Part shown: one piece after another, positions 2,212-36,683 of the stretch
Position numbering within the stretch: the stretch's first letter is position 1
Layout of the letters: each line of letters opens with the position of its first letter
DNA from: Thermincola carboxydiphila
GTDB lineage: Bacteria > Bacillota > Thermincolia > Thermincolales > UBA2595
Reading direction: 5' to 3'
Length of the DNA stretch: 64,000 nt
NCBI GenBank assembly: GCA_016841045.1
Contig: JAENZX010000005.1
Location: 1-64,000, forward strand
Position numbers and translations under genes: made by a program
The notes under the pieces: model-generated
The model's database searches: none
What the model was told of the DNA's origin: nothing
The model's input: only the letters and a program-made list of their open reading frames with translations

Positions 2212-2592
2212 TTGTACGAGATTGCGGCTTTCGGGCATTTTGATGCAGCTCACTACCTTCGCGGATATGATGGCAAGTGTGCCAATATTCACGGGCACCG
2301 CTGGAAGGTGGAGATAACACTACAGGGTAGTGAATTGGACGAGCTTGGTATTCTAATTGATTTTATGGATGTTAAGAATATGCTTAAAGAGGTTCTTAAT
2401 ATTTTTGATCATAAAATGATAAATGATGTTGAGCCCTTTGATAAGCTTAATCCTACGGCAGAAAACATATCAAAGTTTATATATGACAGTATGGCCGAAA
2501 AGCTGAAGGACCAAATAGGAACACATATCATTATTGCCAGGGTAACGGTATGGGAGTCTGAATCAGCCAGCGCAGCATATTTTAAAAGTTGA
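2212..2592 (+). CDS. queD: 6-carboxy-5,6,7,8-tetrahydropterin synthase
   Basis: 126 aa QueD/PTPS-family enzyme that makes 6-carboxytetrahydropterin from dihydroneopterin triphosphate, the first committed step toward preQ0 and queuosine in tRNA. Visible signatures are the zinc histidines H14 (FDAAHYL), H27 and H29 (IHGHRW), the catalytic Cys23 (GKCANIHGH), and a C-terminal V-WES-SA substrate-binding segment. The start is a TTG with GAAAGGTGG about 8 nt upstream. queC follows with a short gap, so the two form an operon. The rest of the preQ0 pathway (queE, folE) is not in this window. Confidence 0.93.
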   Translation: MYEIAAFGHFDAAHYLRGYDGKCANIHGHRWKVEITLQGSELDELGILIDFMDVKNMLKEVLNIFDHKMINDVEPFDKLNPTAENISKFIYDSMAEKLKDQIGTHIIIARVTVWESESASAAYFKS

Positions 2593-2612
2593 TACAGGGA
2601 GGTCTGTATGAA

Positions 2613-3284
2613 ATGAAAGCAGTTGTCCTTTTATCGGGAGGATTGGATTCGACCGTATGTATGAGTGTTGCTAAAAAGGAGGGGTATGAACTTTTCCCAA
2701 TAAGTTTCTCTTATGGCCAAAGACATAACAGGGAATTAGAATGCGCAAAATCGGTGGCCAATTATTATAATGTTGATAAGCACCTCATAATAAACACCAA
2801 CATGGATGCAATAGGTGGAAGTGCCCTCACTGATGATATCGAGGTTCCGGAAGGTGATGAGAACAGGCAGGATATACCGGTAACCTATGTCCCGGCCAGG
2901 AACCTTATTTTTCTCAGTTACGCTCTTGGTTATGCTGAAGTTCTTGACGCGGCAAAGATATATATAGGTGTGAATGCTGTAGATTATTCTGGTTACCCTG
3001 ACTGTAGACCTGAGTTTATCGACCGGTTTCAAAACCTGGCGGATTATTCGACAAAAGCAGGCACACAGGATAGTAAGCACATAAAAGTTGAAACACCTCT
3101 AATACACCTTACGAAGGCGGAGATAATCACTCTTGGTATGAAAAACGATGCTCCCCTTAACCTGACTACCAGTTGCTACAGAGGCGGGGAATTGGCTTGT
3201 GGCACTTGTGACAGCTGTGTACTGCGTTTACGCGGCTTTAAGGAGGCAGGCTGTGAGGATCCTATTTTGTACCAGCAGCGATAG
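2613..3284 (+). CDS. queC: 7-cyano-7-deazaguanine synthase
   Basis: 223 aa QueC, converting 7-carboxy-7-deazaguanine to preQ0 with ATP and ammonia. The N-terminal PP-loop SGGLDS is present at residues 8-13, and the C-terminal zinc site is formed by the Cys residues of SCYRGGELACGTCDSC. I chose the ATG at 2613 because GGGAGG sits about 10 nt upstream and the protein then begins directly at the first strand (MKAVVLLSGG). An upstream in-frame start at 2589 would overlap queD and add eight unlikely residues. It belongs to the queD operon, with the putative selenoprotein gene 26 bp downstream. Confidence 0.95.
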   Translation: MKAVVLLSGGLDSTVCMSVAKKEGYELFPISFSYGQRHNRELECAKSVANYYNVDKHLIINTNMDAIGGSALTDDIEVPEGDENRQDIPVTYVPARNLIFLSYALGYAEVLDAAKIYIGVNAVDYSGYPDCRPEFIDRFQNLADYSTKAGTQDSKHIKVETPLIHLTKAEIITLGMKNDAPLNLTTSCYRGGELACGTCDSCVLRLRGFKEAGCEDPILYQQR

Positions 3285-3310
3285 CTTTAAGCGAAAGGAG
3301 TGAAATAGCT

Positions 3311-3640
3311 GTGAGTGAGAATACCATAACTGTTTTCGGTTCCAGAATTTTGGAAAATTGTAACCGTACTGGTTGAGGGCCTGTTCAGTCTCAGGCTGAG
3401 ACAGTCCGGGTTTTAGGTGAACTGCTAAAGAAAAAATACGGGGACAGGGTAAGTATAAGATATATGGATGTAATAGATGATGACATGGATCAGTATCCAG
3501 AAGTAGAAGAATATATCAGAAATGCTGGGATGAAACTGCCGCTGCTGGTTATAAACGATAAGATAATCCGTCCCGGAGCGGGGCTTAATTATTTAGAGAT
3601 TGAGGAAACAATTGAAGAAATGTTTGGAGGAAAACTTTAA
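3311..3640 (+). CDS. Putative selenoprotein, thioredoxin-fold
   Basis: Open frame of 109 codons from a GTG at 3311 (AAAGGAGTG upstream) to TAA at 3638-3640, interrupted only by a UGA at 3374-3376. Read as selenocysteine it gives residues CNRTGUGP with Cys17 and Sec22. The rest is a normal alpha/beta thioredoxin-like protein: strand TITVFGS, helix, strand VSIRYMDV, helix, a cis-Pro-type strand KLPLLVIND, then two helices. The overall order resembles YuzD/glutaredoxin-like proteins. Coding quality is the same on both sides of the UGA, and a SECIS-like hairpin follows it at the right distance. Probably co-transcribed with queDC and ended by the hairpin at 3641. The alternative is a recent nonsense mutation of a Cys codon. 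Function is unknown beyond likely redox chemistry. Confidence 0.7.
3374..3404 (+). promoter_or_regulatory. UGA codon plus SECIS-like stem-loop
   Basis: After the UGA (3374-3376) comes a stem GTCTC (3388-3392), loop AGGCT (3393-3397) and stem GAGAC (3398-3402). The loop starts at the 17th nucleotide after UGA and contains a GG, closely matching the E. coli fdhF SECIS, where the AGGUCU loop starts at nucleotide 18. This is the layout expected for SelB-dependent Sec insertion. Confidence 0.6.
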
Positions 3641-3664
3641 GGATGGCATCGCCATCCTTTTTTG
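3640..3664 (+). terminator. Rho-independent terminator
   Basis: AAGGATGGC-ATC-GCCATCCTT hairpin followed by a T-run, overlapping the stop of the putative selenoprotein gene and closing the queDC unit. Confidence 0.85.
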
Positions 3665-8585: not shown

Positions 8586-8668
8586 GCGGTCGTGGCGGAA
8601 CTGGCAGACGCGCACGTTTGAGGGGCGTGTGAGTAATCGTATGGGTTCAAGTCCCATCGACCGCACCA
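8586..8668 (+). tRNA. tRNA-Leu (anticodon GAG)
   Basis: 83 nt including an encoded CCA. Acceptor stem GCGGTCG/CGACCGC, anticodon stem CACGT/GCGTG with loop TTGAGGG (anticodon GAG), variable arm, T-arm ATGGG-TTCAAGT-CCCAT. It is complete, but its 3' half was supplied by the island: the displaced original 3' half is at 24447-24508 and differs at three positions in and next to the variable arm. Confidence 0.95.
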
Positions 8669-8675
8669 AATTTAA
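8614..8675 (+). repeat. attL: island end in the tRNA-Leu 3' half
   Basis: 62-bp direct repeat matching 24447-24508 with three mismatches, running from the anticodon arm through the CCA end to AAATTTAA. It sits next to the integrase gene, the classical layout of a tRNA-integrated element. Confidence 0.9.
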
Positions 8676-8683
8676 TTATTATC

Positions 8684-8728
8684 AACCTCTGCAGTTTTTG
8701 ATTTTCAAAAACACGCAGGGGTTTTTTA
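8684..8728 (+). terminator. Terminator after tRNA-Leu (island copy)
   Basis: AACCTCTGC...GCAGGGGTT imperfect hairpin with an inner TTTTTG/CAAAAA stem, followed by six Ts. It replaces the original tRNA terminator that now lies at 24513-24555. Confidence 0.7.
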
Positions 8729-8817
8729 TTTGGGTCGTGTGAACTGTGCGTGTACTAAAAAATCGTGTGAACTAAAAACGTGCGAACTTCTCCCAAACAA
8801 AAAAAGGGGGAATAGAG

Positions 8818-9810
8818 ATGGCAAGAACTAAAGGTCAACCCAAAAGAAGGGGTAAGATTGACTTTACACAGACAGAACAATTTAAAACTGTACCTTTGGA
8901 GAAGGGGGGAGATGATTTTGATTACTGTGTTCGAATCTTCCTTGATGAACTGGATTTGAAAAACCTATCCTATCATACCAAAAGATGGCATAGGGAGAAC
9001 CTAAACGGAGTTAAAAGGGCATTGGATAAACTGGAGTTATCTTCGAGACCTGTAGAAATTACAGACAAGACCCTAAAACAATGTATTCTCTATTGGAAAA
9101 GGGATTTAGCACAATCACCAACAACAATAAACCACAGAATAAGAAGTCTAAAACAACTCTATTTATTTTTAAATAAAGAAGGAATAGTGAACACCAACCC
9201 TGCAATACCTCTCGAAAAGTTAAAATCACAAAAGGTCATTATAAAACCTTTCGAAGAAGAACAATTACATAAGATTTTAGCACAACCTGATAAGTCAACG
9301 TTTGTTGGGTTTAGGGACTATACTATAATGTTGGTGCTCCTTGATACAGGCACGAGGTTAATTGAGTTACAGAACATTAAGATTCCTGACATTGACCTGA
9401 AGGGAAATAAGATACTTGTTTTTGGTAAAGGGGCGAAGGAGCGGGAAGTAGTTTTTCAGGGTACTACTAAACAATATTTGCGTAGGTACATCTCAGTTCG
9501 AGGTGACCTTGACCATGACTACTTGTGGGTATCAGATAGGAACGAACCTATGACAAGAAGGAATATTCAGCAACGATTAAAGATATATGGTAGAATGGCA
9601 GGTATAACTAACATAAGGGTTTCGCCACATACTTTTAGACACACGAGTGCTAAGTTATATATAAAAAGAGGTGGAGACATTCTTAGCCTTCAGAAGTTAT
9701 TGGGACATTCTTCGTTAGATATGGTTCGCCATTACGTGAATTTATGGGGTTCTGACCTTCAACAAATGCACAAGAAGTTCAGTCCTGTAGAGGGATTGCT
9801 TAATAATTAA
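8818..9810 (+). CDS. Tyrosine-type site-specific integrase
   Basis: 330 aa. The N-terminal SAM-like core-binding domain (about residues 35-130) is followed by the catalytic domain with Arg in TGTRLIEL, Lys in GKGAKER, HTFRH (H-x-x-R), LGHSS and the nucleophilic Tyr in RHYVN. All catalytic residues are present. GGGGGAATAGAG precedes the ATG. Placed 150 bp from attL, it is the obvious candidate for integration and excision at tRNA-Leu. A short hairpin follows the gene. Confidence 0.93.
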   Translation: MARTKGQPKRRGKIDFTQTEQFKTVPLEKGGDDFDYCVRIFLDELDLKNLSYHTKRWHRENLNGVKRALDKLELSSRPVEITDKTLKQCILYWKRDLAQSPTTINHRIRSLKQLYLFLNKEGIVNTNPAIPLEKLKSQKVIIKPFEEEQLHKILAQPDKSTFVGFRDYTIMLVLLDTGTRLIELQNIKIPDIDLKGNKILVFGKGAKEREVVFQGTTKQYLRRYISVRGDLDHDYLWVSDRNEPMTRRNIQQRLKIYGRMAGITNIRVSPHTFRHTSAKLYIKRGGDILSLQKLLGHSSLDMVRHYVNLWGSDLQQMHKKFSPVEGLLNN

Positions 9811-9832
9811 ATGGTAATGAGAAAGCATAAAA

Positions 9833-9852
9833 CCCCGACTAAAAGGTCGGGG
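9833..9852 (+). terminator. Hairpin after integrase
   Basis: CCCCGAC-TAAAAG-GTCGGGG stem-loop 20 bp after the integrase stop. It has no long T-run, so termination may be partial. Confidence 0.6.
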
Positions 9853-10134
9853 TAATTTCATAATATTACCAATGTAATTAATGTTGACAAGACATTTAAC
9901 CAATGTTAAACTAGTCATTTGCCAAGGGGGGCATTACATAGCAAAAGTACTGTAAGTACTTAAATTACGGTATAACGCACGTGAATAATAGATTGTTAAA
10001 ATCTATTTTTAAATATCCATAGTTTCGGCATCTTATGCTTTAAGGGGGTTGAATACTAAGTTGTTTAAAGTTTAGCATGTAGAGAAAATTCAGAACTAAT
10101 CGATATCACAATAATATCTAAGCGAGGAGAAGTA
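9853..10134 (+). promoter_or_regulatory. Regulatory spacer with promoter and dyads
   Basis: No gene seen. TTGACA (9884-9889), a 17-bp spacer and TAAACT (9907-9912) form a good promoter. It is followed by a doubled palindrome AGTACT-GTA-AGTACT (9945-9959) that could be a repressor site. The leader is long (about 215 nt) before the HTH gene at 10135. Confidence 0.5.
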
Positions 10135-10563
10135 ATGATGAACGAAAAAAATACTATGGAAATGGCAACTGAAACAAATGAAGAAATGTATCTTGAGAAT
10201 TTAATAAAAGAATACGGCAAACCTTTGATTCTCGATGAAAGTTTTTTTGCGGATGAACCTGTATATCAACCATGCCATGATTTATACGATTTGTTTAAAG
10301 ATTTTAAGACTTGTATGGGAGTTACTTTGGATTTCAATAAACTGACTCCTAAAGAACTTAAAATCTTGTGGTGGCATGAAGGTTATAACGATACTCAAAT
10401 AGCAAGGTTATTTGGGGTATCTACTAAAAAAGTTATTAACAAAAGAGAAGAATGGGAAATTGATATAAATAATTTGAAAAGAGAGTTGATAAAGGAAATA
10501 GGACTTAAATGGGCATTGAGGGTTCGAGAATTGGAGGATGAGATTAAACTCCTAACAGCCTAA
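10135..10563 (+). CDS. Small HTH protein of the island
   Basis: 142 aa, acidic. Residues 80-115 (LTPKELKILWWHEGYNDTQIARLFGVS) form a convincing helix-turn-helix of the sigma-70 region 4 / YlxM type, followed by a charged helical tail. The ribosome-binding site GAGGAG precedes two adjacent ATG codons (10135, 10138); either may be used. Probably a DNA-binding regulator or replication accessory of the island. The next gene follows within 75 bp on the same strand. Confidence 0.6.
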   Translation: MMNEKNTMEMATETNEEMYLENLIKEYGKPLILDESFFADEPVYQPCHDLYDLFKDFKTCMGVTLDFNKLTPKELKILWWHEGYNDTQIARLFGVSTKKVINKREEWEIDINNLKRELIKEIGLKWALRVRELEDEIKLLTA

Positions 10564-10634
10564 GAATTTAAAATGATAAATAAAATAACTTGATACCTAA
10601 TAACCTTAAAATAATTTTAATTAGGAGTGTAGCA

Positions 10635-11102
10635 ATGAGTAAAAAAATGTATTTGGCATGTAATGTAGAGAATCCTGAGAAAGCATATGTAGTTAGGGAA
10701 AATAACATTGAAAAGGCAACTAAAATGCTTTATAAAAAAGAACTGGATAATGAGGATGCTTTTTTTAAGTTGATAGATTATTATTTTGTTAAATTTCATA
10801 CGGACGAATCTGGTTATCTTTTTGATGGTATAGATGAAGATGAAGTCGACGAATTTTATCAAATATGGTGGTACGATGCGTGGAAGTTACTGGAGAAGAA
10901 CACTGAAATATTCTTCAAAGATTATCCAGAATGGGCAGAAATTTATTCAATAGGTTGTTCTAATTTTGAAACACCAAGGGAACATCTAGAGTATGCTGTA
11001 GACATGTGGGTATACATGTACCAAGAGGCATTTGGGCATGAATGGATTATTAAAGAAATACAGTCACCAATCTTACAAGAACCTAATGTAGTGAATTTAT
11101 AA
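10635..11102 (+). CDS. Unknown acidic island protein
   Basis: 155 aa, soluble, rich in Glu, Asp and aromatic residues (YQIWWYDAW, MWVYMYQEAFG). I chose the ATG at 10635 because TTAGGAG lies 8 nt upstream; a longer reading from 10590 lacks a ribosome-binding site. No recognised domain. Confidence 0.55.
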   Translation: MSKKMYLACNVENPEKAYVVRENNIEKATKMLYKKELDNEDAFFKLIDYYFVKFHTDESGYLFDGIDEDEVDEFYQIWWYDAWKLLEKNTEIFFKDYPEWAEIYSIGCSNFETPREHLEYAVDMWVYMYQEAFGHEWIIKEIQSPILQEPNVVNL

Positions 11103-11134
11103 AATTAATCTTGTTTCTTAACAGATTACATATC

Positions 11135-11159
11135 AGGGGTTACCAAAAAAGTAACCCCT
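11135..11159 (+). terminator. Hairpin ahead of helicase-like gene
   Basis: Perfect 9-bp stem AGGGGTTAC / GTAACCCCT with loop CAAAAAA, followed by a moderately T-rich stretch; closes the two-gene unit or attenuates transcription into the next one. Confidence 0.6.
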
Positions 11160-11192
11160 AATTACTTTTATAAGGAGGTGAAACACAGAACA

Positions 11193-11246
11193 ATGCTTCA
11201 ACCAAGGGAGCTGATTATTTCTAACCTTCTCGAATCTATGATTTGA
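11193..11246 (+). CDS. Possible 17-aa leader peptide
   Basis: ATG-initiated 17-codon frame (MLQPRELIISNLLESMI) behind an AAGGAGG that is rather far away (about 14 nt). It ends 13 bp before the TTG start of the helicase-like gene, so it could be a translated leader. Weak evidence. Confidence 0.25.
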   Translation: MLQPRELIISNLLESMI

Positions 11247-11259
11247 GGAGGAAATTATA

Positions 11260-13053
11260 TTGAGAAACTTTAACCCAATAGCAATAGCAAGTACTGAAAA
11301 GATGGCTCAAGATTATGAAATTAAAAACGATAAGAGGTTGAAACAACTCACCTATGTATCACATGTAATATGCCAATATAGTACACCAAGGGACTTATTT
11401 AATGTTTTAGACCCTGAATGTACGGCAGGTAAATCGGTTATTGTTTGTTACACTATTGCGGAACTTTACCTTAAAACTAGAGAAACCACTGGTACGGTAA
11501 TAGTTAAGAATTTTGATTTAGAAGTGAATCAAACAGTTAACAGAATAAATCAATTGACTGCTGAACGGACTGCAATAGGTATATCCGCAAGTAACTGGAA
11601 GGATGAGAGGAGCAACTTAGACCAGTACCATACGGTAGTAATTACTCACTCAAGGTATTGGCAGTTACTGAAAAACAAGGAACTAGATAAATTCTTAAAG
11701 TTCTATCGGGGTATCGAGAGAAGGAATTTCATTGTTGATGAGTACTGCGACTTGGCAAAGAAGAAATCCTTTGGAGTACAAAAACCAGAGAAATTATCTA
11801 AGCCAGTTCCCGAAGAATTTGAATATCTAGATGAGTTGTCAAAGTTGCTCGACAGAGAACCACGAAAAGATTTTGATTTATTGATTGAGCCCATAGTAAA
11901 AGAAGTCTCTCTGCATCGACACGAAGAAAAGAAAATGTTTTTTGCTAAGTTTCAGTTTAATAAAGTCCTGTTTAACAGGGTAAAAAGTTTGGTGAAGGCA
12001 AACTTCAAGGGTGCAAGTGGAGTAAGCAAGAACCAATTCCTTAATAGGTTAGAAGATATTAGTTTGCTACTGCGATATGGTGGAGTCATTAATAACAACA
12101 CGATATCCTTTTGCGACCCTAGTGTACGGTATATGGGTTTCTCAAATAACATCATCTTGGATGCGAACGGTGGATTTGACCACAAGTACGCATTAAATGA
12201 AAAACTGAAAGTCATACCTCAGGGAAACTTCAGGGACTTCTCTCAAGCGAAAATCTACATGTACAGGGTTAATAGTAGCAAAAATGGCATTAAAAAGGCT
12301 ATTAACTACTTTAAGGAATGTGGAAAGTTGATGGCAAAACATGTTGGCAATAACGACAAGGCATTGGTGGTTATTCATAAGGAGTTTATGGATGCTTCTG
12401 ATTTTGAACAACATATTTTACCTTTAACCAAGAATCATAGTATTTCAGTTGATTGGTACGGAAACCTTCAAGGTAAAAACGATTACGGCAATTTCAACAA
12501 AGTCTTTATCTTAGGCACACCTCGCAACAATAGTGTTGACTACGTATTGCAGTATCATTACCATACCCTCAAACCAATTAACAAACAAAGAACTCTTAGG
12601 ATGGTAGGTAATGGTGAAACTTATGCCTTCAAGAATAGAGACATGGACAAGTTGAGGATTACTCAGAGTGCAGGTGATATCTATCAAGCAATTTTAAGGA
12701 TAGACAGAAACAGAGAGAGTTTCACAGGTGAGATTTTCCTGATGTGCAAGGATTCTGATGTAGAGAAACTAATTTTGAAGCAGTTCAAAGGCAATATCAA
12801 GAAGATAACGAAATCTCTTGATATTAAGTACGACAAGGATGCCCCACCGAAACCTGAGGATTATCCAACTAAACTTATACAATTGGTAAGTCAACTGGTT
12901 TCAGGGGTTTACAAAAAGAAGTGGCTTAGGGAGCAAATAGGGTATTCTGACAGCAAAAAGTTCAATGAGAGAGTACTGAAACATGCCGATGTACTGTCCT
13001 ATTTTAAGGCGAGAGGCATTAAAACTGTATACCACGACATCATCATCCCTTAA
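11260..13053 (+). CDS. SF2 helicase-like ATPase of the island
   Basis: 597 aa. A Walker A-like element (ECTAGKSVIV, about residue 55), a DExx Walker B (RNFIVDEYCD), a second RecA-like half with VFILGTPRNN, and a motif VI-like stretch (GDIYQAILRIDRNRE) indicate a superfamily 2 helicase/translocase of a divergent type. The C-terminal 70 residues are basic. TTG start with GAGGAGG 9 nt upstream. As the only large enzyme beside the integrase, and lying just upstream of a dyad-rich noncoding region, it may act in replication of the excised element. A defence role cannot be excluded. No nuclease motif was seen. Confidence 0.6.
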   Translation: MRNFNPIAIASTEKMAQDYEIKNDKRLKQLTYVSHVICQYSTPRDLFNVLDPECTAGKSVIVCYTIAELYLKTRETTGTVIVKNFDLEVNQTVNRINQLTAERTAIGISASNWKDERSNLDQYHTVVITHSRYWQLLKNKELDKFLKFYRGIERRNFIVDEYCDLAKKKSFGVQKPEKLSKPVPEEFEYLDELSKLLDREPRKDFDLLIEPIVKEVSLHRHEEKKMFFAKFQFNKVLFNRVKSLVKANFKGASGVSKNQFLNRLEDISLLLRYGGVINNNTISFCDPSVRYMGFSNNIILDANGGFDHKYALNEKLKVIPQGNFRDFSQAKIYMYRVNSSKNGIKKAINYFKECGKLMAKHVGNNDKALVVIHKEFMDASDFEQHILPLTKNHSISVDWYGNLQGKNDYGNFNKVFILGTPRNNSVDYVLQYHYHTLKPINKQRTLRMVGNGETYAFKNRDMDKLRITQSAGDIYQAILRIDRNRESFTGEIFLMCKDSDVEKLILKQFKGNIKKITKSLDIKYDKDAPPKPEDYPTKLIQLVSQLVSGVYKKKWLREQIGYSDSKKFNERVLKHADVLSYFKARGIKTVYHDIIIP

Positions 13054-13562
13054 CCATCAAACACTATCTTGTACAAGCAAATATACTGTCGTATATTTAC
13101 TCTATTTTTGCTAACGCAAAAACTCTGAAATGTTTTTAAAATCCTGAATCCCTTGCGTACCAAGACTTGAGGATACAATGTCCCCTTCATCTTATAAAAG
13201 AATTACTATTATAGGGTTTGGGGGACTTTAAGCCTCAATCCTTTATATACCAAGAATTTCGAACACATGGATTTTTTCTGCGTTAGCGAAAAATGAACTT
13301 TAAGTTTTTGCGACAGCAGAAACTTGAAGTTATCACGGAGTGAAGATTGTGTCTCTGGATGAATAAATTTAGTAAATACTTTTAGATAAAGATGCAATTA
13401 TTTTTGGTAGTAATTACTAAAAGGGTAAATAGTTATCTTACGGAATTAGAATAAAGTGGTACGGTATGGAATTGTTCCGTAAAATCTTAATGATTGACCG
13501 TTGTTAATATCCTGTTCTCTACGATGATTTATCTTTAGGTTAAATTGGATGGAGTTATGTAA
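13054..13562. other. Noncoding dyad cluster, 509 bp
   Basis: No supported gene. Dyads in order: AAATATAC-TGTC-GTATATTT (13079-13098), TTTTTGC-TAAC-GCAAAAA (13105-13122), an inverted partner TTTTTCTGCGTTAGCGAAAAA (13271-13291), and AAGTTT...AAACTT (about 13302-13325). Two related direct segments, one near 13147 and one near 13237, share ATCC.TT...TACCAAGA. The density of AT-rich dyads and direct repeats beside a helicase gene is compatible with a replication origin or a recombination/regulatory region. Confidence 0.5.
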
Positions 13563-14126
13563 ATGAGTAATGACAAAATTAACTTGACAGGTTTGTTAGG
13601 AAATTTCTTAGGATTTATATTCTTGCTGTTTTCAATATTCTTCTTCCTGCAAGGATGCTATGAGGGTTATAAGGAAATTAAAGCAGACGAAGAATTTAAG
13701 AAAACTGCCGAGTATCAAATGATGATAAAGGAACAAGAAGCAAAAGAAAAAGCCGAAAAAGAGAGGATAGCACAGGATAAGGCTAAACGTGAAGCAGAAA
13801 AAGCACAAGCAGAGATGGCACAAGCACTATCAGGACAGGATAACACAGAATGGGCAAGAGGGAATATACATGCCATTGCACATCGTTATGCTGAAGGAGA
13901 AATTGCAAGGAGATTAAAACTACCGAAAACAGCAAGGTTTGTTTCAGAGGACGATATAGAGATATACAGAATAGACGAGAATACATATACATTGTGGGGA
14001 TGGATAGATACTGAAAACCCTCCTTATTTTGGGTACTATACAAGAACTCATCATTGGTATGTAAAAATGAGAATGGAGGAAGATGGCTGGAAATACTTAG
14101 AGGTTATCATAAGAAACGAGAATTAG
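13563..14126 (+). CDS. Membrane-anchored coiled-coil protein, unknown
   Basis: 187 aa. One transmembrane helix (about residues 10-30, LLGNFLGFIFLLFSIFFFLQG), a long Lys/Glu/Ala coiled coil (residues 40-90) and a C-terminal beta-rich domain of about 80 residues (YTLWGWIDTENPPYFGYYTRTHHWYVKMR). The TM helix is followed by Cys31, but this is not a typical lipobox. Start ATG at 13563; weak ribosome-binding site. Ended by a strong terminator. Family unknown. Confidence 0.6.
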   Translation: MSNDKINLTGLLGNFLGFIFLLFSIFFFLQGCYEGYKEIKADEEFKKTAEYQMMIKEQEAKEKAEKERIAQDKAKREAEKAQAEMAQALSGQDNTEWARGNIHAIAHRYAEGEIARRLKLPKTARFVSEDDIEIYRIDENTYTLWGWIDTENPPYFGYYTRTHHWYVKMRMEEDGWKYLEVIIRNEN

Positions 14127-14132
14127 TTAATA

Positions 14133-14157
14133 AAACCTGCTTCTGGCAGGTTTTTTG
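14133..14157 (+). terminator. Rho-independent terminator
   Basis: AAACCTGC-TTCTG-GCAGGTTT hairpin with a T-run. Confidence 0.85.
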
Positions 14158-14365
14158 TTATGAATAAAATTAGTATTTTACCAATTTTAATGAGAAGCCA
14201 AGTTCAACTGATTTAGATTGCCTTCTGCTTCTCTGTTCTGAAGATACTGGATGGTGAGGAATGATTTACCTACCTGAAATAGTGGTGTTAGGATGGATGT
14301 CTGATATCAATAATGGTATAATAATATATTACATAATTACAAAATCACTACAGGGGTAAATGCCA

Positions 14366-14656
14366 ATGTTAAATATATTGCTTCAGTTCTTTGCAAAAGT
14401 TACAAGCAAGACTTTTGGACAACCCATTGAGACTAAGGTGGGTGGGAAGAAAGTTAAAATCAGGGTAGATGCAGAACCTGATTCTAAGTCCATTCATATC
14501 CAATCAGGTCGTGGTCGCAGGTCGAGGATTAAAATTCAAATAAACCCGACACAACCCCTCGAACCGCAGATACCTAAGAACCTAAATCTTACAGAGAATC
14601 AAAAAAGAGAGTTGTTACATATACTGGAACAAGCTGTTAGGTTCTTGGACAGTTAG
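14366..14656 (+). CDS. Small basic protein, unknown
   Basis: 96 aa, basic. The N-terminus is amphipathic (LNILLQFFAKVTSK), followed by a Lys/Arg-rich middle (GGKKVKIRVD, SGRGRRSRIKIQI) and a helical C-terminus. Two ATGs (14360, 14366) lie after AGGGGT; spacing favours the second. Might bind nucleic acid, but no known domain is visible. Confidence 0.5.
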   Translation: MLNILLQFFAKVTSKTFGQPIETKVGGKKVKIRVDAEPDSKSIHIQSGRGRRSRIKIQINPTQPLEPQIPKNLNLTENQKRELLHILEQAVRFLDS

Positions 14657-14850
14657 GAGGATTTAAGAAATTAAATTCGAAATAATTGTGAGAAGATGTT
14701 ACCCATTGGGAAATGTATCAGGCTGTCTGAAAGTACTATTATTGAATAATAATATATTAGACAATGGTATTTTATGGACAGATAAAAAATAATGTACTTA
14801 TTTTAAACTTGTGATAAGCCATTACGCATACAATGGCACAGGAGGTCACT

Positions 14851-15420
14851 ATGAAAATTTTCTTGAATTTAACGAAACGAGATAATCTTCCAGATGTTAC
14901 AGATTTGACAACATATATTTGGGACAACAATAAGAGCATTTCCAGAGCAGGAGATTCGATTGACTTTAGAAAATGTACTTCATTAGCGTTAGCATGGGAT
15001 AAATGGATTGATGATACACGATGGAGTTGTCATCCGAAGTTTAAAGAATATATTTATTTTTGGTTTTTGCATACATCGCCTAACAACAGTACATTAATAA
15101 TAGAAATTGATGATGATGCTGTATTTGTAGATAAAAGAGCTTACTTTAGGGCAATTGAGTATATTGCAGAACAAACTAATGCAAAGATTAATTTAGGGAA
15201 CGAACTAGATAAGCAATTAGAAGATTACTTATATCACCATCAAACAGATAAAAAATTGAGGAGACAAATTCATAAACTATTAGAGGAACAAATACAAAAA
15301 AATAAAGTTGATTTTATTGAACGTAATGAATTTCATCAGCTGTTTAAGGAGTATTTAGAGACAACTTTTTCTGATGCTATTGACAGAAGTTTAGCCAATT
15401 TTTCTTGCAACACAGTATAA
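14851..15420 (+). CDS. Unknown island protein
   Basis: 189 aa, soluble, mixed alpha/beta. I chose the ATG at 14851 because AGGAGGT lies 5-6 nt upstream; an in-frame ATG at 14833 precedes that ribosome-binding site. The C-terminal half is strongly helical and charged. No recognised family. Confidence 0.6.
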   Translation: MKIFLNLTKRDNLPDVTDLTTYIWDNNKSISRAGDSIDFRKCTSLALAWDKWIDDTRWSCHPKFKEYIYFWFLHTSPNNSTLIIEIDDDAVFVDKRAYFRAIEYIAEQTNAKINLGNELDKQLEDYLYHHQTDKKLRRQIHKLLEEQIQKNKVDFIERNEFHQLFKEYLETTFSDAIDRSLANFSCNTV

Positions 15421-15727
15421 CAACTATATAATGGGGTTAAGTTAAACGAGTTTTTAATTGTTGTTTACGAATAAATTAAATTTTAGAGTCCAAAATTCAA
15501 TTTACAACAGGTGCTATATACCATGACTATAATTTTTTATATTTGTTGAAGTATGAAATAATTACATTTCTATTTGTATAAGTCATTAGGGTTAACCATT
15601 GCGGTTAACTCTTTTTTTATGCGTTAATAAAACTAGTATTTAGTTTACTGATGAAATACCAGAAGAAGGAAATGTAGTGCATTCTGTTGAAAACTTGGAA
15701 TAACAAAGTTATATAGGAGATAGGCAG
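15421..15727 (+). other. Intergenic with terminator
   Basis: 307 bp, AT-rich, no gene. A GGGTTAACC-ATTGC-GGTTAACTC hairpin with seven Ts at 15589-15618 is a clear intrinsic terminator. It lies about 170 bp after the preceding stop. Confidence 0.65.
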
Positions 15728-16339
15728 ATGAAAAATAAGTTGGGAATCGAAAACCGCACAGATTTATTTGATTGGGAAATAGGTTATTTCATTGATGAAG
15801 TAAGACATCATAATATTTCGGTGGACTATAAAAAAATTGATGACTTAGAGTTCTATCACTCAATTGAATGGCTTATACCTCCTGCTATCGTATTTTTCAT
15901 TTCCAAACCTTTTATTGAATCATTTCTCCAAGAAGCAGGAAAGGATGCATATATAGGCTTAAAATCATCAATCAAAAAACTGCTTAACAAAAGCAAATCG
16001 GAGGAATTTAAGTATTTTAATTCGTCAGGTAAAAGCATAAATGCTAGTCATATTGGTCTTTTAGTTGAACTTGAAGAGATTAGGGTTACATTAAAGATTA
16101 ATTTTCCTCCCGATTTAACGGATGAAGATGCGATTGATAAGTTATTTGAATGTTTAAGTCCTGTCAATCGTAGTGTTTTGGTCAACATGGTTCGGGATTT
16201 TGTACTTCAATGTGAGTTTCCTAAAAAATTTCCTGCAAAAGAAGCATACCTCGAATATAACAACGAATCAGGCGAATGGGAATGTTTTGACATAATTCAG
16301 AAGGTAAAGGAAATGAGGTTAAGTCAGAAAGATAAATAG
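15728..16339 (+). CDS. Unknown protein with one hydrophobic segment
   Basis: 203 aa. A single hydrophobic stretch at about residues 50-72 (LIPPAIVFFISKPFIESFL) separates a short acidic N-terminus from a larger charged domain. GGAG lies about 10 nt before the ATG. No family recognised. It is followed within 70 bp by another single-TM protein, so the two may work together at the membrane. Confidence 0.55.
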   Translation: MKNKLGIENRTDLFDWEIGYFIDEVRHHNISVDYKKIDDLEFYHSIEWLIPPAIVFFISKPFIESFLQEAGKDAYIGLKSSIKKLLNKSKSEEFKYFNSSGKSINASHIGLLVELEEIRVTLKINFPPDLTDEDAIDKLFECLSPVNRSVLVNMVRDFVLQCEFPKKFPAKEAYLEYNNESGEWECFDIIQKVKEMRLSQKDK

Positions 16340-16409
16340 AACTACACATTATAGTTAAATAAAGCCTTGGTAAATCCAAGGTTTTTGACTTGAGAGGTGG
16401 GTAATTCTT

Positions 16410-16889
16410 ATGACTGATTATGAAAAGTGGTCGGTATTAGGACAATGGATGAGTGGTATTGGGACTATTGTTGTTTCAATTGTTTTAGGTATCATTACAT
16501 ATAAAATATCTAAGAAACAGGTTGAATTATCAAAAAACAATTTGAAAATTGAACTATATAAGCAGAGATATGACATTTATTATAGATTGGAAGGCATTTT
16601 AAGAGGTATCATCTCAGCGAACGGCACAATAAAAGATGAATCATTATATGAAGTAGCAATAATTCGTGATGAAGTGATGTTCTTGTTTGACAAAGAAATA
16701 CATGATTACTTGTTACAAATAATTAATAAGATCGAAAAGATAAATCCGTATTATTACGACAAAAAAAAGGATGACAATTATTACGAATTACAAGGTTGGT
16801 TTATGAACCAGTTTGCAGAGAAAAAAGAATTGAGAGAGAAATTTAAACGATATCTAAATTTAAGTAATTATGGCTTATCAAAGGAATAG
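16410..16889 (+). CDS. Single-TM protein with cytoplasmic helical tail
   Basis: 159 aa. Residues 10-32 (WMSGIGTIVVSIVLGIITYKI) form a membrane anchor, followed by a Lys-rich juxtamembrane helix and a helical domain. This layout is common in accessory-region proteins of unknown function. GAGAGGTGG precedes the ATG. Convergent with the 398-aa gene across a hairpin. Confidence 0.55.
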   Translation: MTDYEKWSVLGQWMSGIGTIVVSIVLGIITYKISKKQVELSKNNLKIELYKQRYDIYYRLEGILRGIISANGTIKDESLYEVAIIRDEVMFLFDKEIHDYLLQIINKIEKINPYYYDKKKDDNYYELQGWFMNQFAEKKELREKFKRYLNLSNYGLSKE

Positions 16890-16912
16890 AGTTTGTACGG
16901 ATTGAATAAAAC

Positions 16913-16946
16913 AAGGCTACGCATCTTATCGATGTAGTAGCCTTTA
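16913..16946. terminator. Bidirectional hairpin terminator
   Basis: AAGGCTAC...GTAGCCTT stem with an inner GCATC/GATGT pairing, and T-rich on the plus side, between converging genes. Confidence 0.6.
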
Positions 16947-17162
16947 TTGTTATAAAATCAGGCTTTTGTGAAAAGGGTTATAGTTGAAAGAGTTGATTTT
17001 CTGGTATTCTTAATCCTTACTTTCCCAAGGGTTTCAGGATTGGAGTTTTGAACCAAATTGCTAATTTTGCCCTGTAACGAGTTCCAATTTTGAGGGCAAG
17101 GGTACACATACCTAATTTAATTACAAACCTTTAAAATGCCTAAAAAGCCGTTGCAAAAGTAT

Positions 17163-18359
17163 TCAACTAACTTCTAATTCACATTGTTTAACCATTTGAA
17201 TTAGTTCCCATTCAATGGCTTTCTGTAGAAAAACCGTAGTTGTATCAAAACTAGTTAAATTCTTTTGATAAGGTTTAAGCCAGAAATCACTTCTTCCTTT
17301 TAGGTTATCTATTCCGTTTTGCTTAACAATGGTTTTTATGGTATCTACATCAACTTTAATGGAGGAATATTTTTCGTAAATGAATCTAATAAACTCCGTT
17401 CCGTTGGTCAAGTAAAACGAATTTAAGAAATCTTGCATTCGATTCATAAGTTTTTGTTCATATCCGCTATTTATGGACTTTTCCTTCCATTGGGAACCGA
17501 TAATGTAAAATATATCTTGAGCCTCAAAATGGGAATTGTCGCATTTTAGTAAAGTATTAGCAAGGTCTGCTACTGAAATCAGGAATTTTTCAACGATAGG
17601 TGTTTCACTACTATTCTGATATGTTTGGTTACGTTCATTCCTGTACTTCACTAGTTTCTTTAAGTACAGCCACGATTTACTATAATCTTTGACTGAATGA
17701 TATATTAAATATAAAATTAAGGCTAATTTATCTTTTTCAGAAACAAATTTATCATTTATCTCAAAAATATCTTCGTGTAAATAATGTTCAAACAGATTGT
17801 TGATTTGGATTTCAAATGTTTGAATATCTCTGTTTTTAAAAAAATCTTTAATTGCATCATCTATAAGGTGACTGACATAACCTGTATAGTTTTCTTCAAA
17901 CAAATGATGTTTTTCGTTAAATGCTTGAGGATTAATATGCTTTTTTTGCATTACTCGACTACGGAACCATTTATATCTATTGTCTTTATCTCTATAATGG
18001 TAACCCACTAACTCGCCGTTGTGTTCTTTTATCCTTGGTTCTTTGAAATCAATGCTATTAATATCAGGTTTTCCGTCAATCACCTTAATGGTTATTCTCA
18101 TTCTAAAATCGTATTCACTTGGGTCTATTTTCGAACTGTCAACATTATTTATATCTTCGCACGAGCAATATTCTTTAATATCACTCATACATAAATTGAA
18201 TTTCATTTCTCGTAAGTTATGACTAAATGGGATTTCTATATATTTTGTACTTGGTTTGAAACTTAGATTATTTAATTCTACAGATAACTTATCTAATAGT
18301 ATTGGGTATCCATTGCTTAAGACTTCTCTTAAAACACTCACAAAACCTGAATCAAACAT
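17163..18359 (-). CDS. Unknown 398-aa protein
   Basis: Soluble, alpha-rich protein with a cluster of Cys residues near residues 57-67 (CMSDIKEYCSC) and many charged residues; no transmembrane segment and no catalytic motif that I recognise. The ATG has AAAGGATGTG upstream on the minus strand. It is transcribed divergently from the TPR-DUF2971 gene across a 200-bp promoter region, so the pair could be jointly controlled. Confidence 0.6.
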   Translation of the reverse strand: MFDSGFVSVLREVLSNGYPILLDKLSVELNNLSFKPSTKYIEIPFSHNLREMKFNLCMSDIKEYCSCEDINNVDSSKIDPSEYDFRMRITIKVIDGKPDINSIDFKEPRIKEHNGELVGYHYRDKDNRYKWFRSRVMQKKHINPQAFNEKHHLFEENYTGYVSHLIDDAIKDFFKNRDIQTFEIQINNLFEHYLHEDIFEINDKFVSEKDKLALILYLIYHSVKDYSKSWLYLKKLVKYRNERNQTYQNSSETPIVEKFLISVADLANTLLKCDNSHFEAQDIFYIIGSQWKEKSINSGYEQKLMNRMQDFLNSFYLTNGTEFIRFIYEKYSSIKVDVDTIKTIVKQNGIDNLKGRSDFWLKPYQKNLTSFDTTTVFLQKAIEWELIQMVKQCELEVS

Positions 18360-18561
18360 ATTTACACATCCTTTGCATTAGCTGTTAAATTAATGATATA
18401 GTACATAAATATTCCAGTCAATGTGACCTCGATTAGTTTGAGTCAAAAGACTATGAGATATGGACTGTTTGTAGTTGAGAGCAGGAAAACTGTATACGGT
18501 TATAGAAAATTTTAACAGTAATAACTTTTATAGAGAAAACAGTTGAAGGTGGTTTTTTTGT

Positions 18562-20253
18562 ATGAAAGAAATTTCTGCACAAAAAGAATGGAAGTTGGCA
18601 GAAGAAGAATTTAGAAATAATGATTATATCTCGCAATTGTATCATTTATATAATGTCTTAAAGAATATCCCTATTGATAACGATGACTCAATATGCAGAA
18701 TTAATTCTTTGCGAGAGTTAGTGTTTAGTTCTTTGGAAATGAAAGAATTAGAGTTATTAATGAAAGAAAACATTTACAAAACATCACACAAATTAGATAT
18801 AAGTAAAACGGAGTTGATGATGGAACTTAAACCCATAGAATTATTAAATGAATTTAGGTTACTTCTTTTGTTCCAGTATGATGATTTTTCTATATTGAAC
18901 AAACAAGATTTCTTTAATTTACTGGAGCAAGTCAATAAGTATGAGGAGTTAAATTTTTGGTTTGACTATTTATTGTTACATGACCCATTAGATAGCGAGG
19001 TTATTTTTAAAAAGGCATTAATTTATTATGGTGAAGGGAAGTATAAAGAAGCAATACATCTAGTTGACAAAATAAAAAATGACATTTATCTAGAAAAAAT
19101 TAAAATAAATTGTTTGATTAAAATAGAGGCATTCGAAGAGGCACTTGGTGTCATTAAAGCATCAAAAGTAATGGTTGAAGAAGATAATTATATACAGAAA
19201 ATTAGAGTTCTAGAAGAAAAGAATTTGATACTTAAAGATTGTGAAGATGAATTTAAAGAATTATATATAAAAGGAATAAGTGAGTACTTGGAAGATGGAA
19301 GAATTAATATCTTAGCAAGTTCGCCATACATTCAAAAATACTTATCTCAAGACGCCGAGGAGATATATCATTACTCCGATGTGAATGGTATGTTGGGTGT
19401 AATAGATAATCAGCAATTTTGGGCTACTAAGAACGATTTTCTTAACGATTACAAAGAACATAATTTCATAATTGACATTTTAGGAAAAGTCACCAACCAA
19501 TCAGTTGGAATAGAACTAGATAATATAAAAAAAGCAATTAAAAGGTACTTTGACAGCATTTCATACAAGAAAAATATTGAAAAATCTAATGATATGTTAG
19601 ATGAATTTATAGACGATGATATTTTAAAAGATTATCTTAATGAAGTGTATCTAATATCTAATTCTACCAATCCTGATAATTTGACTTTGTGGGGAAATTA
19701 TTCTAATTTTGTAGGTTATAACATTGGATTTAATAGAAAATCTCTTATATCTGATATAAAAAGTATGAAAGGTGATAAATCTTACAACTATGTAGTTGAA
19801 GGTAAGGTTAAATACTTGGCTGAAAAAGAAGAGTCGAACATAGTTAGCGAATTGATAAATGAAATTTATAATGACCTAAAAAGAAAAAATGTAAAAGATT
19901 ATCTAATCACTAAGGTAATAATTGCTCATTTATTATTAATTAGCAACTTCATAAAACATTCCTCAATGAGCCATGAGGAAGAATACAGAATATTGTTTAT
20001 TAAAACGAGGAAAGACAGCATAGTAAACTATATGAATGAAGTAATTCAGTCAAAAATTAGAGTAAAGGGGAGTTCTCTAGTTCCATTTATTGTAGTTCCT
20101 ATAAATAATAAGTCGTCACTAAGAAGTGTGACAATTGGACCAACAAATAATATGGATATATCCGAAAAAGGTGTTGTATATTTGCTTCAAAAGAAAGGTT
20201 ATGGAGAATGTGTATCAATGGTCAATAAAAGTAAAATTACTTTAAGATATTAA
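18562..20253 (+). CDS. TPR-like / DUF2971 fusion protein
   Basis: 563 aa. The N-terminal 240 residues are helical with TPR-like repeats (ALIYYGEGKYKEAIHLVDKI). From about residue 260 a DUF2971-like domain follows: IYHYSDVNGMLGVIDN...FWATKNDFLNDYKE, then ISNSTNPDNLTLWGNYSN, GYNIGFN, and the terminal EEEYRILF. These correspond to the family's conserved W/F-S-x-x-x-x-F-ND, S-x-x-x-DN-LMW-x-Y and E-EYR motifs. DUF2971 is uncharacterised and frequent in accessory regions. TPR modules suggest partner recognition. GAAGGTGG precedes the ATG. Confidence 0.65.
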   Translation: MKEISAQKEWKLAEEEFRNNDYISQLYHLYNVLKNIPIDNDDSICRINSLRELVFSSLEMKELELLMKENIYKTSHKLDISKTELMMELKPIELLNEFRLLLLFQYDDFSILNKQDFFNLLEQVNKYEELNFWFDYLLLHDPLDSEVIFKKALIYYGEGKYKEAIHLVDKIKNDIYLEKIKINCLIKIEAFEEALGVIKASKVMVEEDNYIQKIRVLEEKNLILKDCEDEFKELYIKGISEYLEDGRINILASSPYIQKYLSQDAEEIYHYSDVNGMLGVIDNQQFWATKNDFLNDYKEHNFIIDILGKVTNQSVGIELDNIKKAIKRYFDSISYKKNIEKSNDMLDEFIDDDILKDYLNEVYLISNSTNPDNLTLWGNYSNFVGYNIGFNRKSLISDIKSMKGDKSYNYVVEGKVKYLAEKEESNIVSELINEIYNDLKRKNVKDYLITKVIIAHLLLISNFIKHSSMSHEEEYRILFIKTRKDSIVNYMNEVIQSKIRVKGSSLVPFIVVPINNKSSLRSVTIGPTNNMDISEKGVVYLLQKKGYGECVSMVNKSKITLRY

Positions 20254-20846
20254 CGTAGTAGCCTTGATATCTTTTTATTTGAAGAATTGAACATTTTAGC
20301 ATTTATGTGTCCCATAGATAGCAGTAAGTTATTGCTCGATACCGTTCAGGGGTATATTGCTCTATTCTAAAATAAACAAGGCTTTCTGTCTAACTGAGAG
20401 TAAGGTAGGGTCTGGACTTATCATAATAATTCGATTTAATCGGCTTAAATGGGCAAATATGAGGGGATTTGAGGAGTGACCATCGATTGCCGAAAGAATT
20501 TTAGGTACTCTCCGACAGGGTACAATTCAGCAGGAAGGAACTTAAGTTATAAGGGAAAAATAGTTGAAGGGTTTCTATTAGACATATATCTCTTACAATA
20601 CCTTTCAACTATCTCCTGATGAGTGAGAGTAGTATCTTTGTGATGAAATCACAATAAAACAGACCTGAAATTATTATGGATACAGTTTTTGTGAGATAAT
20701 AGGGCAGTTTCTGCTCCTTTTTGCTTTCAAACCTATAACATCTCTATCCATAATGCTTATTATGAGTAAACATTATGTTGCCAGTTTCCTCTTTTGGTGG
20801 TATAATTAACTATAGTAAGACATGCCATTACAGGAGGAAAGCACCA
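20254..20846 (+). other. Noncoding region before second recombinase
   Basis: About 590 bp without a supported gene. It holds a long-range inverted repeat ATAGTTGAAGGG ... CCTTTCAACTAT around 20568-20613 with an AT-rich loop, several short palindromes, and at its end the recombinase promoter. The rest shows nothing I can name. Confidence 0.5.
20778..20806 (+). promoter_or_regulatory. Promoter of second tyrosine recombinase
   Basis: TTGCCA (20778-20783), a 17-bp spacer and TATAAT (20801-20806). Its position supports the recombinase start at 20847 rather than an upstream in-frame ATG at 20775. Confidence 0.7.
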
Positions 20847-21707
20847 ATGACAACTAATGAATTGCTTCAGCAGTACCAAGATGAATTGATTCGGCAGGAC
20901 AAATCAGATAATACAATTGCCTCCTATATGCTTGACCTGAAATCATTTATTAAGTGGTATGAGGAAAGCACTAACGAAGGTATTGAGAAGTTAATTGCCT
21001 TAGACTTAAAAGACTATAGAGGGTTCTTGATGGCTAACGGTGCTAAGGTTGCAACTGTGAACCGTAAAGTTGCCAGTATAAATAAGTATGTTGAGTGGTT
21101 GAATGTTAGAGGGGTTCTGGATAAGCAACTGAAACTGAAGCAAATCAAGAGGTCAGCCTCAGAGCAACAGTTCAAGGGTCTTGATTCCAAGGAACTGAAG
21201 GCACTCAGGAAGGAAGTACATAGGAACGGCAACAAGAGAGATATATTTATGTTCGAGTTGCTGATTAATACAGGTATTAGGGTTTCAGAACTCTGTGACA
21301 TTAAGTTCGATTCGATAGAGGTTTCAGAACGCAAAGGAACTCTGTCAATCATCGGCAAAGGAATGAAGCAAAGGACTGTAGCATTAAATAAGGATGTCAG
21401 GGATGCTTACGAGGATTATATAAAGGCAAGACCTGTAACATCTTGTGATTACCTTTTTGTTGGTCAGAGAGGGCAACTGACAAGGAATGGAGTATTTAAG
21501 ACCCTGAAGAAGTATGCAGACAGAGTTGGAGTTGAAGTTAGTCCTCATTGCCTGAGGCACAGCCTAGCGAGGCATTTACTTGAATCAGGAACTGATATAA
21601 CAACTGTTCAGGGTATTTTGGGGCATGAGAGGTTAGAAACTACTGCAATTTATACAAAGTCCACTCAGGAAAAAATGAATCAGGTTTTAGAAACTGTAAA
21701 CTGGTGA
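20847..21707 (+). CDS. XerC/D-like tyrosine recombinase
   Basis: 286 aa, compact XerCD-type. An N-terminal core-binding domain (LLQQYQDELIRQDKSDNTI) is followed by catalytic residues in TGIRVSELC (Arg), GKGMKQR (Lys), HCLRH (H-x-x-R), LGHERL and AIYTKS (Tyr). The start ATG has AGGAGG about 11 nt upstream. It is distinct from the 330-aa integrase near attL, so the island carries two recombinases; this one may resolve multimers or move a nested unit. Confidence 0.9.
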   Translation: MTTNELLQQYQDELIRQDKSDNTIASYMLDLKSFIKWYEESTNEGIEKLIALDLKDYRGFLMANGAKVATVNRKVASINKYVEWLNVRGVLDKQLKLKQIKRSASEQQFKGLDSKELKALRKEVHRNGNKRDIFMFELLINTGIRVSELCDIKFDSIEVSERKGTLSIIGKGMKQRTVALNKDVRDAYEDYIKARPVTSCDYLFVGQRGQLTRNGVFKTLKKYADRVGVEVSPHCLRHSLARHLLESGTDITTVQGILGHERLETTAIYTKSTQEKMNQVLETVNW

Positions 21708-21836
21708 TAATACCAGGTTTTCTTTTTGCTTAGGGGTGGGGGGTAGTTTACAACCAAAAATCTAATTGAACTTCGAAAGCAGAGGGTAGTAGATACACTT
21801 CCCAACTATGCAAAAAGACCGATTCCTCGGTCTTTA
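21702..21836. repeat. Duplicated intergenic module, copy A
   Basis: Contains in order an ACTGGT...ACCAGGT terminator after the recombinase, a G-run (GGGGTGGGGGG), an AGTAGATA.ACTTC.CAACTATG segment, and a minus-strand terminator AAAGACCGA-TTCC-TCGGTCTTT (21813-21835). The same order recurs at 23396-23530, so the convergent-terminator module has been duplicated. Confidence 0.65.
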
Positions 21837-21840
21837 ATCT

Positions 21841-22065
21841 TTACCTTTGAAGTTTTTCCATCATGGCACACAAATCAGACATCTTAATTCTTAAAGCCTT
21901 ACAAATCCTATTTATACTGATAAGCGAAATATTCTTAGCACCACGTTCAACATCCGAAATATAGGTGCGACTTAAATCCGCAAGTTCGGCTAAATCCTCT
22001 TGTGTTAGATTGCGTTTAAGTCTATATTCTCTTACTGCTAAACCAAAGTAATATTTAATGTCCAT
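21841..22065 (-). CDS. Small Xre-family regulator
   Basis: 74 aa helix-turn-helix of the Cro/C1 (HTH_3) type: LTQEDLAELADLSRTYISDVERG followed by ISLISINRICKALRI. Start uncertain: ATG at 22065 or a TTG at 22104 (adding 13 residues); neither has a strong ribosome-binding site. Likely controls island genes. A promoter for the opposite strand begins about 45 bp upstream, so it may regulate the divergent small gene. Confidence 0.8.
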   Translation of the reverse strand: MDIKYYFGLAVREYRLKRNLTQEDLAELADLSRTYISDVERGAKNISLISINRICKALRIKMSDLCAMMEKLQR

Positions 22066-22110
22066 AAGACAAGTTTTAATGCAAAGGGGCAAAATGTCTA
22101 TCAACTACGA

Positions 22111-22139
22111 ATGACATTTGGTGGTCTGTGTGATATAAT
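22111..22139 (+). promoter_or_regulatory. Strong promoter
   Basis: ATGACA (22111-22116), a 17-bp spacer and TATAAT (22134-22139). A hairpin terminator begins only about 16 bp after the -10 element. Confidence 0.65.
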
Positions 22140-22155
22140 CAATCCAGAAAGTAGA

Positions 22156-22192
22156 AGAATTGGTTTCCAAGTGAACCAGTTCTTTATTTTTT
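22156..22192 (+). terminator. Leader terminator / attenuator
   Basis: AGAATTGGTT-TCCAAGTG-AACCAGTTCT hairpin followed by a T-rich run (TTTATTTTTTT), placed between the promoter and the small gene at 22209. Transcripts would end after about 45 nt unless read through. Confidence 0.65.
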
Positions 22193-22208
22193 TACAGGGG
22201 GAGATTTA

Positions 22209-22439
22209 ATGTCAGATAAACAGCATGGTTATAGGGTAGAAAAACCAAGACAAAGATTAAGTGAACAGCCAGTTGATTACATAACACCTAACGGAATCAA
22301 AGTCATCAAATCAAATGACCCATCGCCCGATGCATGTCGAAGATTCATCAGAATTCTATTAGCAATAGATGCAAGAAACAGATATAAGGCTAATCAACAT
22401 AAAGATAACCAAGGAGAGTGCAACAATGACGGAAAATAA
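22209..22439 (+). CDS. Small hydrophilic protein, unknown
   Basis: 76 aa. GGGGGAG precedes the ATG. It carries a short conserved-looking segment, DYITPNGIKVIKS...SPDACRRFIRILLAI, that is repeated in degraded form in the next, overlapping pseudogene. This shows that the segment is a real protein family, not chance. Function unknown. Confidence 0.6.
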   Translation: MSDKQHGYRVEKPRQRLSEQPVDYITPNGIKVIKSNDPSPDACRRFIRILLAIDARNRYKANQHKDNQGECNNDGK

Positions 22440-22590
22440 CGACCACAACAAAGAGCAGAGTGACCAGATGATGTATTTATATCACCAAGCGGAATAAGGT
22501 TTACGGCTAATAATAGTTTCATCACAAGAAGCATGTAAGCAGTTTATTAGGGTGATATTGGAGATTAGAGGAAAATACGGAATTGAATAA
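22426..22590 (+). pseudogene. Frameshifted paralogue of the preceding gene
   Basis: ATG at 22426 (AAGGAGAG upstream) opens MTENNDHNKEQSDQ. After a shift the sequence reads ISPSGIRFTANNS, and after a second shift SQEACKQFIRVILEI, matching ITPNGIKVIKSND and SPDACRRFIRILLAI of the gene at 22209. Two frameshifts make it nonfunctional. Confidence 0.65.
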
Positions 22591-22625
22591 AATGATAGAG
22601 GTAGAGTATGTAGGAGGTATAACTG

Positions 22626-23387: not shown

Positions 23388-23395
23388 TTTCAGGA

Positions 23396-23530
23396 CTGGT
23401 GATGAGCCAGTTCTTTTTGTTCGATGAGGGGTGGGGGGGGGGTTACAATTAAATTTTGTGTTGTTTTATTGATTGCTGTTGCAGTAGATAAACTTCTCAA
23501 CTATGAAAAGAGACCGATGAATCGGTCTTA
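23396..23530. repeat. Duplicated intergenic module, copy B
   Basis: Same order as 21702-21836: ACTGG-TGATGAG-CCAGT terminator with T-run, a G-rich run (GAGGGGTGGGGGGGGG), AGTAGATAAACTTCTCAACTATG, then the minus-strand terminator AGACCGAT-GAA-TCGGTCTT closing the gene at 23540. Confidence 0.65.
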
Positions 23531-23539
23531 AAAATTAGA

Positions 23540-24202: not shown

Positions 24203-24446
24203 GTTTTATTACACCCCCTTCTAAAAGATATGGGAGGTGAAAGTTGTCCTATAACCAAGCATTACAAATTCTCTACTTGCTTTAATGAAATAAAGTAATT
24301 ATACTGGTCTTAGGAGAGTTCGCTAATAACGGTTTTTAAAGTGATGCGTATGAAAAATTAAGGAAAATTACGCACTTTGGCAACATTCTTAACTCTTTTA
24401 CAACAAGGGACAGAATGGATTTTCTAAATACCTAAATCAAAGACTA
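24203..24446. other. Island right edge, noncoding
   Basis: No gene. AT-rich promoter region of the minus-strand gene leading up to attR. Confidence 0.5.
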
Positions 24447-24508
24447 ACGTTTGAGGGGCGTGTGGGCAACCGTATGGGTTCAAGTCCCATCGACCGCACC
24501 AAATTTAA
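24447..24508 (+). repeat. attR: displaced tRNA-Leu 3' half
   Basis: Repeat of 8614-8675, starting in the anticodon arm and ending in AAATTTAA. It differs only at three positions of the variable-arm region (GTGGGCAACCG versus GTGAGTAATCG). It has no 5' half and cannot be a functional tRNA. Confidence 0.9.
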
Positions 24509-36679: not shown

Positions 36680-36683
36680 ATTG

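Follow-up and report, generated by a model that had tools for sequence, protein, structure and literature searches.

A probable selenoprotein of the DUF1462 (YuzD)/ArsD superfamily encoded beside queDC in Thermincola carboxydiphila

A small gene directly downstream of queD and queC in Thermincola carboxydiphila almost certainly encodes a selenoprotein, in which an in-frame UGA is read as selenocysteine (Sec). The gene was identified in a 64,000-nucleotide stretch of the genome (contig JAENZX010000005.1, positions 1 to 64,000, forward strand), which is referred to here as the window. We estimate a probability of about 0.9 for Sec decoding of the UGA together with placement of the product in the DUF1462 (YuzD)/ArsD superfamily; judged by sequence comparison, the protein is a member of a Sec-rich branch of that superfamily. 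The frame translates as VSENTITVFGSRILENCNRTG-U-GPVQSQAETV...GGKL-stop and contains exactly one in-frame stop, the UGA at codon 22 (Table 1). An earlier note, made from the letters of the window only, had described a 109-codon frame with a single UGA and protein-like sequence on both sides as a probable new selenoprotein 3' of queDC, and this description has held up through comparison with other genomes, which supplied the conservation of the UGA, a bacterial SECIS hairpin, the Sec machinery, the exchange of Sec for Cys and the family assignment. The selenoprotein gene would be the last gene of the queD-queC unit. Because the terminator begins on the frame's own TAA, the transcription unit closes with the read-through frame and not at the UGA.

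Table 1. Coordinates of the queD-queC-selenoprotein cluster and of other features of the window
Feature	Position	Strand	Remarks
queD (6-pyruvoyl tetrahydropterin synthase family), opening the conserved queD-queC-selenoprotein cluster	2212..2592	+	PF01242, 1.1e-39
queC	2589..3284	+	PF06508, 1.1e-77; ends 26 nt from selenoprotein start
Shine-Dalgarno-like AAAGGAG	3294..3300	+	read from sequence; 10 nt 5' of GTG
Selenoprotein gene (probable)	3311..3640	+	109 residues, Sec22, GTG start, TAA stop; PF07315 above gathering score
Codon of Cys17, candidate resolving Cys of Cx4U	3359..3361	+	invariant in A1; on first Cys of 1xg8 CxxC and on ArsD C13
UGA, probably read as Sec22	3374..3376	+	UGA or Cys in homologs; on second Cys of 1xg8 CxxC and on ArsD C18
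Bacterial SECIS hairpin GTCTC-AGGCT-GAGAC (stem-loop-stem)	3388..3402	+	11 nt after UGA; covariation, frozen synonymous sites
Pro77, cis-Pro position of thioredoxin fold	3539..3541	+	LP pair invariant in A1, P in A2
Intrinsic terminator	3639..3659	+	first bases on TAA stop; z -3.94
tRNA-Leu(gag)	8586..8668		at integrative element
Likely integrative element	8614..24508		about 15.8 kb between repeats
Direct repeats of tRNA-Leu 3' part	8614..8675 and 24447..24508		62 nt, 95% identical
Integrase	8818..9810		of integrative element
563-aa ORF	18562..20253		within integrative element; PADLOC candidate defence model PDC-S31, 7.6e-12
Very long ORF	26321..33316		2331 aa
Two 300-nt direct repeats	35821..37419		77% identical, 1299 bases apart

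Homologs of the frame were sought by a six-frame search of 101 relatives. Five same-family (Thermincolaceae) orthologs were recovered at full length with 63-66% identity, and in all five a lone UGA occupies the same position and the queD-queC-selenoprotein order is kept; UGA was also present in more than 15 further, more distant relatives. In a phylum sample of 398 genomes, family relatives were detected in 85 genomes and the UGA form in about 43 (about one in nine), a tally made by hand in which one of 44 TGA-flagged genomes (G102) was removed because its TGA is the terminal stop. The earlier note had proposed searching for homologs with Cys or UGA at position 22; both were found, in alignments that span the UGA, and the Cys ortholog L121 reads CFSGGCGP at the place of the window protein's CNRTGUGP. 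A 68-row tree requires 13 changes of the Sec/Cys label, at least seven of them on well-supported branches, and the clade of the window gene comprises 26 Sec sequences and one Cys sequence (support 99/88). The length of the loop varies as well, being Cx4U in most members, Cx3U in L038, and CxxU in L027, L031 and L101; genome G056 has a CxxU copy. In a second clade, Sec appears to occupy the first loop position and Cys the second, as read from a gapped alignment that is uncertain there. Separately, CYGU or CHGU loops were seen in high-GC relatives (L104, L105, L107 and L109), and adjacent CU (APCUPPD) in a divergent group with weak scores (L111 and L112). Pyrrolysine insertion at an in-frame TAG, considered for some relatives, was rejected, as the TAGs read were terminal stops. 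No relative was found in the plasmid and phage collections.

The DUF1462/YuzD model PF07315 matches the window protein with 26.3 bits, against a gathering cut-off of 25, and 15 of the 22 members of A2 at E <= 0.1. A profile search retrieved Staphylococcus aureus SA0798 (PDB 1xg8) over nearly the whole length (E 2e-8), and the profile alignment sets Cys17 and Sec22 on the two cysteines of its CxxC. DUF1462 has been assigned to the thioredoxin clan (PMC3091736). AlphaFold2, run on the alignment, predicted a thioredoxin-like fold (pLDDT 83), and a Foldseek search with this model placed ArsD at the top, with 1xg8 also among the first matches (6.6e-5). The YuzD-type proteins compared have CxxC and no Sec, whereas in the window protein the motif is CxxxxU, the loop is two residues longer, and a SECIS is present in addition. 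ArsD (PF06953, NF033727) resembles the window protein in its fold and in its Cx4(C/U)GP loop: profile-profile comparison with the ArsD proteins of the sampled genomes gave a probability of 95.8, with Cx4UGP lying on C13-x4-C18-GP. Both structural remarks of the earlier note, a thioredoxin fold and a CX4U spacing other than the usual CXXU, agree with these results; the unusual spacing is explained by its equality to C13-x4-C18 of the related ArsD, and sister proteins have CxxU and Cx3U.

As for function, we lean slightly toward selenol-thiol redox exchange, on the basis of the fold and of the neighbours of paralogs. SelB would insert Sec at position 22 of the 109-residue thioredoxin-fold protein, directed by the hairpin that starts 11 nt 3' of the UGA. 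We infer that a reversible selenenylsulfide (Cx4U) links Cys17 to Sec22 at the N-terminal end of the first helix, opposite Pro77, the cis geometry of which is presumed from the family, so that the protein may act as a small selenol-thiol oxidoreductase. Its reduction would probably be carried out by a TrxB-type reductase, a partner suggested by the trxB genes beside paralogs. In one paralog branch (L040 and L046-L050), a gene for a TrxB-type pyridine-nucleotide disulfide oxidoreductase lies beside the paralog in six of six loci; an FmdB-type zinc ribbon (PF09723) is also encoded there, and some loci have a ferredoxin as well. L040 itself (G000:C3, 8281-8602) gives the source genome another selenoprotein of this superfamily, with a Cx3U loop, and has trxB, a ferredoxin, a rhodanese lipoprotein and an FmdB-type zinc ribbon nearby. 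The window gene has queDC as its only constant neighbours, and no redox gene adjoins it. A functional link to queuosine found no support, as queDC adjoins the gene only in Thermincolaceae and neither queC nor queD lies by the other relatives examined.

The same selenoprotein might instead bind and hand over soft metal(loid)s such as arsenic, selenium or mercury as an ArsD-like chaperone, which we regard as possible but rather unlikely; the Cys17-Sec22 pair would be used in either case. In ArsD, C12, C13 and C18 bind arsenite. Besides the profile-profile and Foldseek matches to ArsD described above, the surroundings of other clades speak for such a role, with relatives sharing ars operons. UGA-containing genes lie 1-11 bp 3' of arsD-arsA-arsA, as the last gene of the unit, in L054 and L155; L053 lies 6 bp 5' of a PF01758 (SBF/ACR3-type) permease, and L056 and L146 adjoin ArsR and CsoR-type repressors. 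The window protein itself, however, lacks the C12 ligand and retains just two chalcogen ligands, C17 and U22, as the equivalents of C13 and C18. Its score against the Pfam ArsD model (PF06953) is 14.9 bits, below the cut-off of 27, and NF033727 was not matched, there being no NCBIfam hit for the window protein at E <= 1. ArsD was not found in the source genome, where the gene adjoins queDC in place of ars genes and is not encoded with an ArsA ATPase, and the close paralog branch adjoins trxB. The ArsD-like proteins of L054 (6970-7306) and L155 (6204-6537) are in their own right possible candidates for Sec proteins of arsenic handling.

A post-UGA alignment gave a usable pattern; an alignment with 18 members yielded none, and the pattern obtained with nine members was limited to Cys codons at the UGA site. 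The hairpin core CTC-NGGNN-GAG (CUC-NGGNN-GAG in RNA) is invariant in 22 relatives, and compensatory double changes occur in three stem pairs (G-C/A-U; A-U/G-C/C-G/U-A; U-A/A-U). Among these relatives, whose kinship means that the sequences are not independent, 21 cells were doubly changed, compared with 6.2 in shuffles, and stem covariation was 0.346, compared with 0.141 after shuffling; the covariation signal collapsed in a control in which the pairing partners were shifted by 1-3 columns. Third codon positions are frozen as well: codon +5 always ends in T, codon +6 always ends in G across Gln, Leu and Pro, and codon +8 is GAG in 22/22, whereas at +7 Glu is encoded by GAA and by GAG about equally often. 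Constraint on the protein alone would leave such synonymous sites free. Taken singly, the window hairpin is not significantly stable (minimum-free-energy z -0.38; p about 0.14 against synonymous shuffles); it is the comparative evidence that makes it convincing. RF00031 gave no match anywhere, controls included, and is uninformative because it models the eukaryotic SECIS. The earlier note had likened the distance from the UGA to that of Escherichia coli fdhF, and 11 nt was indeed measured in both the window gene and K-12 fdhF; both have a G in the apical loop, although the stem sequence differs and the loop is GGUCU in fdhF and AGGCU here. Two sister lineages (L019 and L060) have the usual hairpin disrupted but share a conserved one, CTCACC-GGTYT-GGTGAG (loop GGTTT or GGTCT), about 25-30 nt 3' of the UGA, which gives the impression of a SECIS that has shifted.

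Under ordinary gene calling, the UGA 21 codons after the GTG start would be a true stop that closes a 21-codon leader or a dead frame, and the remainder would be a relic that is not translated or a peptide with a start of its own. We consider this very improbable. Downstream of the UGA, dN was 0.10-0.23 with dS of at least 0.85 and often saturated, and the region is, on this comparison, under purifying selection at the protein level; together with the alignment of homologs, this bears out protein-like sequence on both sides of the UGA. The retention of the UGA across genera, the Cys found there in homologs, the terminator that lies only past the TAA and the covariation of the SECIS likewise argue against a true stop.

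The Sec reading is further supported by the machinery of the source genome, in which selC (73.9 bits), selA (635), selB (360) and selD (400) were all found, as the earlier note had suggested checking; selD itself carries one in-frame TGA. A strong tRNA-Sec match was present in 42 of 44 TGA-flagged genomes, whereas the whole sample has 256 such genomes in 398 (Fisher p 3.8e-7, a tally that includes G102), and in 41 of the 43 UGA-bearing genomes after G102 was dropped. The two UGA-bearing genomes without a strong match (G025 and G146) both have SelA, and hence tRNA-Sec or SelA is present in 43 of 43 within the 398-genome sample. Readthrough of the UGA as another amino acid, by near-cognate Trp or a suppressor, could be entertained because decoding is not visible in sequence alone, but no result favours it, and it is highly unlikely given that the alternative residue at the site is Cys, that Sec genes occur in every UGA-bearing genome and that the SECIS lies at the fdhF distance. 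A sequencing error or a pseudogene with a point mutation would be conceivable in a draft assembly of 75 contigs, but is the least credible explanation, as the same UGA recurs in five independent same-family assemblies and many others.

The family is probably new as a selenoprotein family. No model of NCBIfam (June 2026) reached its cut-off, and PF07315, YuzD and ArsD are absent from Table 1 of a 2026 review of 119 prokaryotic selenoprotein families (PMC13188914). A literature search, which was not exhaustive, returned no paper that joins a selenoprotein with DUF1462, YuzD or ArsD. Compared by description, the nearest inventory entry is the Brachyspira pair Sec.1/Sec.2, which are likewise small thioredoxin-domain selenoproteins overlooked by annotation; they differ in their domain (PF13192, with no match for the window protein) and in the place of Sec, which lies in an N-terminal extension as CxU/UxC (PMC5330540).

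More tentatively, these proteins may form a large ArsD/YuzD-like selenoprotein superfamily in which Sec replaces an arsenic-ligand Cys, with Sec metallochaperones or reductases of arsenic operons and thioredoxin-reductase-coupled branches, two Sec positions in the loop and repeated Sec/Cys exchange. The selenoprotein family described here ties Sec chemistry to arsenic operons and to thioredoxin reductase, and through it DUF1462, a family of unknown function, gains a testable redox or metalloid role. The fixed hairpin with its frozen synonymous sites offers a clean model for the evolution of a bacterial SECIS within a coding region. These data suggest that the selenoprotein family is common in anaerobic Firmicutes, where standard annotation would miss or truncate its members.
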